Source: Pedosphaera sp.
GTDB lineage: Bacteria > Verrucomicrobiota > Verrucomicrobiia > Limisphaerales > JADLHS01
Length of the DNA stretch: 64,000 bases
Direction of reading: 5' to 3'
Assembly: GCA_009695195.1 (NCBI GenBank)
Contig: SIBJ01000003.1
Span: 1 to 64,000 of the forward strand
Shown here: piece after piece, positions 35,194 through 37,493 of the stretch
How positions within the stretch are numbered: position 1 is the stretch's first letter
Layout: the number at the start of each line of letters is the position of its first letter
The notes under the pieces: model-generated
What the model was told of the DNA's origin: nothing
The model's database searches: none
Seen by the model: the letters and a program-made list of their open reading frames with translations, nothing else
Translations under genes and position numbers: made by a program

Positions 35194-36213
35194 CTACTCG
35201 CGACCTGCCGCCGCGATGAAAGGCTTCAACTCGTTCATCAAATTCACGAAACCTTCCAGTGTGACCTGCTGCGCCCCGTCGCTCCACGCCTCGGCGGGAT
35301 TCGGATGCACCTCGATCAACAGGGCGTCCGCGCCCATCGCCACCGCGCCCTTGCACATCGCGGCCACGAGGTCCGCGCGGCCCGCGCCCTGGCTCGGATC
35401 AATCACGATCGGCGCGTGCGACTCGCGCTTGATGATGGGGATCGTTGAGAGATCGAGCGTGTTGCGCGTGTAAGTCTCGAACGTGCGGATGCCGCGCTCA
35501 CAGAACATCAGGTTCGGGTTCTCGTTGGCCAGCACGTATTCGCCGGCCAGCAGCCATTCCTCGATCTTCATGGCCAGCCCGCGCTTCAACAGCACCGGCT
35601 TGCCGGTTTTTGCCGCCGCGATGAGCAACTGGAAATTCTGCGCGTTGCGCGCGCCGATCTGGATGATGTCCGTGTACTCGGCGACCAGCTCGACGTGCGA
35701 TTCGGAAAGCAACTCGGTGATGATGGCGAGACCGGTTTCCTTGCGGGCTTTGGCGAGCAGTTTCAAACCTTTCTCGCCGAGACCTTGAAATTCGTACGGC
35801 GAGGTGCGCGGCTTGAACGCCCCGCCGCGCAGCATCGTCGCGCCCGCCGCCTTCACGGCCTTCGCCGTGGTGAGCAGTTGCTTTTCGCTCTCAACCGAAC
35901 AAGGCCCGGCCATGACGTGGAAAGTTTTTCCCCCGAGCGTGTGCTCGCGCACGCGAATGGTCGAGTTGGCTGGATGTGCTTCGCGGCTGACCAGTTTGTA
36001 GCGCTTCTGGATGGGCAGGACGCTCTCGACCAGCTTGGGAAATTGCGCCGTGAGTGTTTCGAGATTGGAGTGGGTAAGTTCGTCGCCGATGGCACCGACG
36101 ACCGTACGGGCCACGCCGCGCATGACGTGCGGCTGGTAGCCAAGCTTGCGGATCTCGGCGAGGACCGTGCGTTCATCCGCCTTCGAGATGCCGGGTTTAA
36201 GGACAATGATCAT
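35194..36213 (-). CDS. aroF: 3-deoxy-7-phosphoheptulonate (DAHP) synthase, Thermotoga/Bacillus type
   Basis: From the ATG at 36213 (MIIVLKPGISKADERTVLAE) 339 residues. It condenses phosphoenolpyruvate and erythrose-4-phosphate in the first step of aromatic amino acid synthesis. Residues 1-75 are the ferredoxin-like regulatory domain of the AroA-beta class, where Tyr or Phe can bind. The rest is the TIM barrel with FHVMAGPCSVES, MLRGGAFKPRTSPYEFQGLG, DIIQIGARNAQNFQLL, PVLLKRGLAM and HAPIVIDPSQGAGRADLV. It stands alone on the minus strand, preceded by a leader with a candidate aromatic-sensing attenuator (36241-36404). So both protein feedback and transcriptional attenuation are likely. Confidence 0.96.
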   Translation of the reverse strand: MIIVLKPGISKADERTVLAEIRKLGYQPHVMRGVARTVVGAIGDELTHSNLETLTAQFPKLVESVLPIQKRYKLVSREAHPANSTIRVREHTLGGKTFHVMAGPCSVESEKQLLTTAKAVKAAGATMLRGGAFKPRTSPYEFQGLGEKGLKLLAKARKETGLAIITELLSESHVELVAEYTDIIQIGARNAQNFQLLIAAAKTGKPVLLKRGLAMKIEEWLLAGEYVLANENPNLMFCERGIRTFETYTRNTLDLSTIPIIKRESHAPIVIDPSQGAGRADLVAAMCKGAVAMGADALLIEVHPNPAEAWSDGAQQVTLEGFVNLMNELKPFIAAAGRE

Positions 36214-36240: not shown

Positions 36241-36279
36241 CAACAAAAACGCCGCAGGGCGTCATTGCGACCTGCGGCG
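36241..36279 (-). terminator. intrinsic terminator of the aroF attenuator (segments 2 and 3)
   Basis: Read on the minus strand, cgccgcagg (36279-36271) pairs perfectly over 9 bp with cctgcggcg (36258-36250) around a 12-nt loop and is followed by tttttgttg (36249-36241). It ends 28 nt before the aroF ATG. No gene ends between it and the GDSL stop 190 nt upstream, so its place is a leader, not a gene end. Confidence 0.85.
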
Positions 36280-36313
36280 ATTTTGGTTGAAAGAATTTAT
36301 CGCTGCCGCAGGT
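36270..36313 (-). promoter_or_regulatory. candidate antiterminator stem competing with the aroF leader terminator
   Basis: Segment 1, acctgcggc (36313-36305), is a perfect 9-bp complement of gccgcaggt (36278-36270), which overlaps the 5' arm of the terminator. Stems 1:2 and 2:3 are therefore mutually exclusive. Segment 1 covers codons 16-19 of the leader ORF, directly before its stop codon. A ribosome that reaches the stop masks segment 1 and lets the terminator form. A ribosome stalled at the aromatic codons 5-12 would leave more of segment 1 exposed. Confidence 0.75.
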
Positions 36314-36359
36314 GCGCGTTGGTAAACCAATAAAAAAAGAAATGCCAGCCCCGACACAT
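36297..36359 (-). CDS. aroF leader peptide, aromatic-codon-rich
   Basis: A 20-codon ORF, ATG at 36359 and TAA at 36299-36297. Codons 5-12 read W-H-F-F-F-Y-W-F, seven of eight being aromatic residues whose synthesis begins with the adjacent DAHP synthase. Such clustering of regulatory codons in a short ORF before a terminator defines classical attenuator leaders such as pheL. The ORF ends within the antiterminator strand. There is no good Shine-Dalgarno sequence. An in-frame GTG at 36392 could extend it by 11 codons. A caution: the Phe codons lie in the T-run following an upstream hairpin, so the sequence may also serve as a terminator. Confidence 0.7.
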   Translation of the reverse strand: MCRGWHFFFYWFTNAHLRQR

Positions 36360-36379
36360 CGGGGAAACTGCTGGCTGGC
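36331..36379 (-). terminator. hairpin around the leader start codon with following T-run, possible GDSL-gene terminator
   Basis: Read on the minus strand, ccccga (36364... inner stem 36349-36364) with loop tgtg is nested in gccag/ctggc arms (36379-36375, 36348-36344). The leader ATG falls in the loop and closing pair. A T-rich tract (36343-36331) follows. It could terminate transcripts from the GDSL gene, hide the leader start, or pause RNA polymerase to synchronise it with the leading ribosome, as in enteric attenuators. Confidence 0.6.
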
Positions 36380-36398
36380 GGAGCGAATTCACAACTGG

Positions 36399-36426
36399 AA
36401 AGTAACCCTCGGCCTTCCACAGTCAA
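36399..36426 (-). promoter_or_regulatory. candidate promoter of the aroF leader transcript
   Basis: On the minus strand TTGACT (36426-36421) is followed after 16 bp by TACTTT (36404-36399), directly after the GDSL stop codon. Transcription would start near 36392, giving a 5' region of about 30 nt before the leader ATG. The -35 box is good and the -10 is weak. Confidence 0.45.
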
Positions 36427-36434
36427 GCCCGGCA

Positions 36435-37493
36435 TCAAAGCCCAAGCCCCAACAGCGCCTGAAAATAAATCCAGTGCCCGAAATCATTCGGATGATTGAT
36501 GTTGTTCGCGAGCAGGTCCTCGGGCTTCTTGCGCGCGACAAAATCCTGCCACCAGTGAAACACATCGGCGAACGCGCAGCGCTTCTCGCGCGCGACCTCT
36601 TCAGTTGTGTCCGCATAGGCCGCCATGTTGTGCGATCCGAAATGCCATTTCGGATTCGGCGGGAAGGCGGAGAATAAAACGATCTCCGCGCCCGTGTCGG
36701 CGCGAATCCGGTCAATCATCACGCGCAAGTTTTCTGCAAACTGGCCGAGCGGCACGCCAAAGCCTTCGCGGTTATGGTCGTTCATGCCGAACCCGATCAG
36801 CACCAGGTCCGGCTTTTGCGACAACACTTTCGCCGGCAACCGCTGCAAACCTTGCGCCGTGGAGTCGCCACCGGTTGCGCCGTTCGTGATGGCAATGTGG
36901 GCGCGCGGATATTTCTTCCGCAACACCTCGGCCCAACGCTCCCAGAAAATCAAACCCGACTCGGTGGCTTCACCGCCCGCTGTGATGCTGTCGCCATACG
37001 CGACGATGCAGAGTGATTCCCCGGCGTGAAGTTTCCCGCTGGTGACGGGCAGTGCCGCAGCCGACAGCCCGGGTTTCACCCGCAACGGCTGCCACGCCTC
37101 ACGATGTTGATAATCCACGTAAACGAAAAATGGCCCGTTGCCGTAGCCGGGAAACTCGCCGTGATTGAAATCTTCCTTTCGGTAAAGAATGTTCGAGCCG
37201 AAATCGGGAATGCGCGAGTTGGGTGTTCGTTGAATCGCCCCCGCGCTGGTCACCACAAAGTCGCGTCCCGCCTGGTAATGAAACGTCTTGGGCAAGGCAT
37301 CGCGATAGGTGCTGCGAAGGTCAATCAGCTTTGACGGCGTGAACGCCAGATTCGCCGGCTCCTGGCCGATCAGGACAACCGATTCCCCGGTCCGGAAGTG
37401 AGCCGCCCTGTGCGTGGGTGGACTGCCGCAACCGGCAAGCAGGAGCGCGGTGGCGAAGGAAGCGCCAAGGTGTTTTGCAAAGTGATTGGGCAT
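36435..37493 (-). CDS. SGNH/GDSL-type esterase lipoprotein
   Basis: From the ATG at 37493 (MPNHFAKHLGASFATALLLAGC) 352 residues. The lipobox LLAGC predicts a lipoprotein. After an N-terminal jelly-roll-like region of about 150 residues the SGNH hydrolase domain has block I VAYGDSITAGG (catalytic Ser), block II ITNGATGGDSTAQG (Gly), block III LIGFGMNDHN (Asn) and block V NNINHPNDFGHW (Asp and His). It should be an extracytoplasmic esterase or deacetylase acting on carbohydrates or lipids. It is divergent from the secreted protein at 37602. An upstream ORF extension to 37679 overlaps that gene and was rejected. Confidence 0.88.
   Translation of the reverse strand: MPNHFAKHLGASFATALLLAGCGSPPTHRAAHFRTGESVVLIGQEPANLAFTPSKLIDLRSTYRDALPKTFHYQAGRDFVVTSAGAIQRTPNSRIPDFGSNILYRKEDFNHGEFPGYGNGPFFVYVDYQHREAWQPLRVKPGLSAAALPVTSGKLHAGESLCIVAYGDSITAGGEATESGLIFWERWAEVLRKKYPRAHIAITNGATGGDSTAQGLQRLPAKVLSQKPDLVLIGFGMNDHNREGFGVPLGQFAENLRVMIDRIRADTGAEIVLFSAFPPNPKWHFGSHNMAAYADTTEEVAREKRCAFADVFHWWQDFVARKKPEDLLANNINHPNDFGHWIYFQALLGLGL

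Follow-up and report, generated by a model that had tools for sequence, protein, structure and literature searches.

Sequence comparison indicates that aroF of Pedosphaera sp. (Limisphaerales) is very probably controlled by a ribosome-mediated transcription attenuator, whose parts, conservation, covariation and spacing are directly observed. The window, i.e., the whole analyzed stretch of 64,000 nt (contig SIBJ01000003.1, positions 1-64,000), carries this element on its minus strand, between a GDSL hydrolase gene (ending at 36435) and the DAHP synthase gene aroF (ATG at 36213). An initial annotation had proposed such an attenuator, and this interpretation is supported by the presence of the element in 72 of 90 classifiable aroF upstream regions, by three RNA segments that change together, and by a spacing that fits masking by the ribosome. 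The downstream gene starts the synthesis of the same amino acids that the leader codons specify (Phe, Tyr and Trp).

Anatomy of the aroF leader region

The promoter read from the sequence (minus strand, as are all features below) consists of a -35 box TTGACT (36421-36426) and, after a spacer of 16 nt, a -10 box TACTTT (36399-36404). The -10 box is weak and was not called in the window by a strict consensus promoter scan; a pattern of the form TTGAC-TANNNT-RTGAA does pick up the window promoter. Homologues and a covariance model delimit a leader peptide ORF of 31 codons with a GTG start (VNSLRQPAVSPMCRGWHFFFYWFTNAHLRQR, stop TAA; 36297-36392). A 20-codon ORF had been claimed here; its frame, its ATG at 36359 and its TAA at 36297 are confirmed, but its start is not, since homologues begin at the position of an in-frame GTG at 36392, which is most likely the start codon used and makes the leader longer than first described. 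This GTG coincides with the predicted transcription start, 34 nt from the -35 box, and the leader is therefore probably leaderless. TTGAC precedes the leader start by 34-40 nt in 68 of 68 homologous leaders, a figure that refers to predicted starts and to a search in which both TTGA[CT] and a start 32-42 nt downstream were among the criteria. With this spacing, only a few bases separate the -10 box from the start codon in these 68 leaders, too few for a Shine-Dalgarno site.

Control codons W-H-F-F-F-Y-W-F occupy positions 36324-36347 and are recognized both in the sequence and by the aromatic enrichment of 68 homologues; direct reading agrees with their description as codons 5-12 counted from ATG 36359 (TGG CAT TTC TTT TTT TAT TGG TTT). 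Segment 1 (ACCTGCGGC; 36305-36313), the 5' arm of the putative antiterminator, forms the end of the leader ORF and pairs without mismatch with 36278-36270 (GCCGCAGGT) over the claimed 9 bp. It is followed by the shared arm, segment 2 (CGCCGCAGGT; 36270-36279), and by the 3' arm of the terminator, segment 3 (CCTGCGGCG; 36250-36258), with a T5 tract at 36245-36249. The other 9-bp stem of the initial annotation is equally exact, segment 3 being the reverse complement of 36279-36271, so that the terminator pairing uses segment 2 shifted by one base relative to the antiterminator pairing. The terminator thus lies between the leader ORF and the gene and shares segment 2 with the antiterminator; both are identified by sequence and structure, the antiterminator also by covariation. 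The gene itself (35194-36213) is, as annotated, a DAHP synthase, of the type I beta with an N-terminal ferredoxin-like domain (PF00793, PF18152; TIGR01361, PRK08673).

Chance rarely produces these parts. For the window, 21 of 20000 shuffled versions of the leader contained a 9-nt complement of the arm, the pairing energy of the antiterminator duplex (-19.7 kcal/mol) was equalled in 3 of 2000 trials with a shuffled segment-1 region, and 1 of 200 shuffles of the leader yielded a qualifying ORF with 7 or more aromatic codons. Over all loci, such an ORF arose in 0.07% of the trials in which the sequence from promoter to terminator was shuffled, vs. 40 of 68 real leaders with 7 or more. The antiterminator duplex outdid those formed with shuffled versions of segment 1 (p<0.05) in only 45 of the 68 loci.

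Conservation and covariation across the order

Comparison of 91 distinct upstream regions of aroF genes gathered from relatives in the order revealed the complete element (promoter, aromatic leader, antiterminator and terminator) in 72, the others being decayed (5), devoid of the element (13) or unclassified (1). Of the 72, 68 satisfied an automatic screen for a promoter, a start codon 32-42 nt further downstream, an ORF and a terminator, and four were added by eye: L005 and L062, which are cut by contig ends, L024, where the terminator abuts the gene, and L091, situated behind a tRNA. The 68 leaders span 20-33 codons with 3-10 aromatic codons each, and Phe, Tyr and Trp codons are found in 68, 66 and 59 of them, respectively (all three in 58). 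Phe, Trp and Tyr together account for 24% of the leader residues in frame vs. 6.6% and 8.6% when the other two frames are read, and for 6.3% in the long ORFs at these loci. Trained on 35 leaders with the window excluded, a covariance model matches the window element end to end (36392-36245; 48.5 bits, E 1e-11); applied to the same genome, it yielded no further convincing copy.

Several loci of this collection show partial or unusual arrangements. Upstream of aroF, L031 and L079 retain the promoter and terminator with the leader ORF mostly gone, a natural deletion; L016 keeps its leader and has lost the T-run, and L019 has a leader and no terminator. In L091, no TTGAC promoter precedes the leader, which directly follows the end of an apparent tRNA gene; aroF and the tRNA may therefore share a transcript there. 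Some contigs are titled Akkermansia, Klebsiella or Proteobacteria (L063, L079, L082, L085, L086, L102, L109); their aroF genes group with Limisphaerales, and these record titles are probably wrong.

Aromatic clusters in homologous leaders are accompanied by compensatory changes in the stems. Because the core stems are nearly invariant (CCTGCG/CGCAGG), these changes were evaluated by setting the native pairings of the segments against pairings with partners swapped between species. Segments 1 and 2 pair at -20.0 kcal/mol with their own partners vs. -17.2 kcal/mol with those of other species, and segments 2 and 3 at -19.4 vs. -17.1 kcal/mol; in neither case did any of 2000 permutations reach the observed value, shared descent being handled by thinning only and hence not fully corrected. 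These duplex tests were used in place of a whole-region consensus (MAFFT/RNAalifold), which recovered only the terminator because leader lengths vary. The antiterminator covariation score was 0.164 vs. 0.101 for shuffles and 0.035-0.097 for slid controls, and one column pair of the second antiterminator helix (87-126) occurs as CG (10), GC (6), UA (6), GU (2) and UG (1). In L088, L089 and L095 all three segments have switched to GCCGG-type stems, and in L104, L028 and L027 the antiterminator extension is altered in step; segment 1 of the congener L004 is weaker.

Outside the order, the control probably recurs in other Verrucomicrobiota classes, as judged by 85 sequences upstream of aroF, most of which come from other families and classes of the phylum. 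In 23 of the 85, aroF is preceded by an ORF in which 5 or more of 9 residues are aromatic (vs. 4 when the reverse strand is read and 3.9 predicted by shuffling), and in 8 of the 85 by one in which 7 or more of 9 are (none on the reverse strand or in shuffles). Aromatic-rich leaders with terminators were located at L131, L207, L216, L225, L226, L237, L213 and L167, and the stems of such leaders (including L131, L216, L225 and L237) are unrelated in sequence. A covariance model limited to the terminator pairs (R1) was tried beyond the order and rejected, as it retrieved mostly lookalike terminators; one of its matches, L131, is a true aroF leader.

Proposed mechanism and alternative explanations

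Between the end of the last aromatic codon and segment 1 there is a median of 10 nt (IQR 8-13), about the distance at which the leading edge of a ribosome with that codon in its A site should lie. Segment 1 begins 14 nt before the stop codon in the window (mostly 7-29 nt in the leaders), and 14 nt is a distance that a ribosome positioned on the stop codon would cover. In the scheme that we infer for the cell, transcription would start at or beside GTG 36392 and the ribosome would begin on the 5' end of the RNA. With charged Phe, Tyr and Trp tRNAs in ample supply, it would reach the stop codon and cover segment 1, segment 2 would pair with segment 3, and the resulting terminator would keep aroF from being transcribed. 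Should any of the three amino acids run short, the ribosome would stall at the aromatic codons; segment 1, left uncovered, would then pair with segment 2, block the terminator and permit aroF transcription.

Two further hairpins bear on this scheme. In most relatives, the loop of a short, covarying hairpin holds or adjoins the aromatic codons (e.g., AGCGGT-tactt-TACCGCT in L028 and GAAGGT-tactt-TACCTTC in L104). With arms taken at fixed distances from the codons, own pairings gave -9.0 vs. -6.8 for swapped ones (0 of 5000 permutations, the same result being obtained with the 41 loci left by thinning). This is probably a pause hairpin, at which RNA polymerase would wait for the ribosome to catch up; its counterpart in the window is weak (TTGG-TTTA-CCAA). 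The window carries instead a strong hairpin inside the leader ORF and before most of the control codons (36344-36376; CCAGC..CCCCGA-TGTG-TCGGGG..), identified by folding (-17.3 kcal/mol) and in the congener L004. Together with the U-rich tract behind it (36376-36327 as a whole), it looks like an intrinsic terminator, and it is found in this genus only (L002, L004), not in other relatives.

This second hairpin invites a reading of the region as two ordinary terminators, one (36376-36344 with its U-rich tract) ending the upstream hydrolase gene and the other at 36279-36250, with the aromatic codons arising by accident from a U-tract that happens to be in frame. The U-rich tract and the location of the hairpin, 59 nt past the stop of the GDSL gene, agree with it. 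However, nearly all relatives lack the upstream hairpin and yet retain the aromatic codons, promoter spacing, frame and segments 1-3, and the promoter stands upstream of both hairpins; a role of 36376-36344 as an ordinary terminator was rejected on the homologues, and we give the two-terminator reading very little credence.

The same homologues speak to the possibility that a trans-acting protein or a small-molecule riboswitch operates the terminator, the ORF being incidental or merely helping. The conserved codon-enclosing hairpin and the invariant terminator sequence could indeed serve as a binding site, but what is retained is the codons rather than a fixed RNA core (in L088, L131 and L225 the stems are wholly changed and the aromatic codons stay), and a search of Rfam, including its amino-acid leaders and T-box, gave no match over threshold for the window region or 12 homologous loci, making such a switch highly improbable. 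A function in trans of the leader peptide or of the terminated short RNA, besides or instead of attenuation, has a precedent in the trp leader of Sinorhizobium meliloti (PMC7298713), a leaderless small mRNA with a terminator, as the aroF leader RNA would be. The peptide sequence outside the aromatic cluster varies freely between relatives, which counts against a conserved peptide function, and we see only a very slim chance of this explanation. Attenuation by the translating ribosome remains our preferred reading of the aroF leader.

Related leaders, known systems and significance

Attenuation may also operate at other amino acid genes of the same genome, outside the window. A leaderless-looking leader with a GTG start (VNKNLNLGLLLVNALLLAGAAVGF) and a terminator precedes leuA (2-isopropylmalate synthase; G000:C27:3445-3620, L246), where the antiterminator is clear (0 of 1000 shuffles as good), and a leader with a Val run (MNGQIRQVSLVVVVVGDAVRACRS) and a terminator precedes ilvB (acetolactate synthase; G000:C126:13386-13550, L250), where the antiterminator pairing in this genome does not exceed that of shuffled sequence (402 of 1000). 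Both have the same promoter-to-start spacing as the aroF leader. So far as sequence can tell, attenuation appears before leuA and probably before ilvB. A Leu-rich leuA leader is present in 19 of 25 relatives and a similar Val-rich ilvB leader in 24 of 30, from which it follows that the clade uses leader-peptide control. Reading upstream of trpE and pabB of this genome disclosed no such leader, nor is a leader peptide visible at its second DAHP synthase gene (type I alpha, AroFGH type; L001, G000:C2:59655-60542); a type II DAHP synthase is absent from the genome.

The proposed logic resembles that of E. coli trpL, pheL and pheM, in which codon-specific stalling chooses between antiterminator and terminator. 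Those leaders have four segments and a Shine-Dalgarno start, unlike the aroF leader with its three segments and segment 1 at the end of the ORF, a design in which untranslated RNA should therefore default to readthrough. The DAHP synthase genes of E. coli are under repressors.

Leader-peptide attenuators are established for E. coli trpL, pheL and pheST (PMC11802643), and a 2010 survey (PMC2965389) added Firmicutes to the Proteobacteria and Actinobacteria in which alone its authors had known such systems. The closest likeness in codons and gene is aroR-aroF of C. glutamicum (Neshat et al., 2014), which, as far as its description in PMC11802643 extends, has aromatic codons (Phe-Tyr-Phe) before an operon with a DAHP synthase gene, shows raised transcription upon stalling, and is reported to respond to Phe and not to Tyr. 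Compared by that description, it differs in phylum and in its codons, given that 58 of 68 leaders here combine Phe, Tyr and Trp. The C. glutamicum ilvBNC attenuator shares the overlap of terminator and antiterminator and a hairpin near the leader start proposed to pause polymerase, but has branched-chain codons and no aromatic control (PMC11857589). Leaderless leader ORFs are known in S. meliloti (PMC7298713) and in Streptomyces (PMC8079986); trpL, leuL and ilvL of S. lividans share with the present leaders TTGAC/TAnnnT promoters and an amino acid gene downstream, have their start codon at the transcription start, as is predicted here, and differ in phylum, in genes and, in several cases, in lacking a U-tract terminator (PMC8079986).

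As the initial annotation had surmised, our search of the open literature found no description of leader-peptide attenuation in Verrucomicrobiota. On this basis, and as no Rfam family covers it, we classify the aroF leader as a new family of attenuators of already known mechanism in a phylum for which no earlier report was found, with features of its own in the three-aromatic leader, the probable leaderless start and the hairpin around the codons.

A broader joint reading, offered tentatively and in our estimate somewhat more likely to fail than to hold, is that amino acid synthesis in Verrucomicrobiota is largely under leaderless leader-peptide attenuators (aroF, leuA, ilvB). The aroF leader would sense Phe, Tyr and Trp jointly, with control codons in the loop of a conserved pause hairpin and stems wholly replaced between classes, and the genus of the window would add, ahead of most of the control codons, a terminator-like hairpin that shuts the gene off if the leader is untranslated.

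Overall, the aroF leader would place attenuation logic at the entry to the shikimate pathway in most of one Verrucomicrobiota order, and would provide a testable control circuit for a phylum with few known regulators. It also supplies a large natural set of three-way covarying stems and, with codons kept and stems replaced, is relevant to the question of an ancient or a repeated origin of attenuation.
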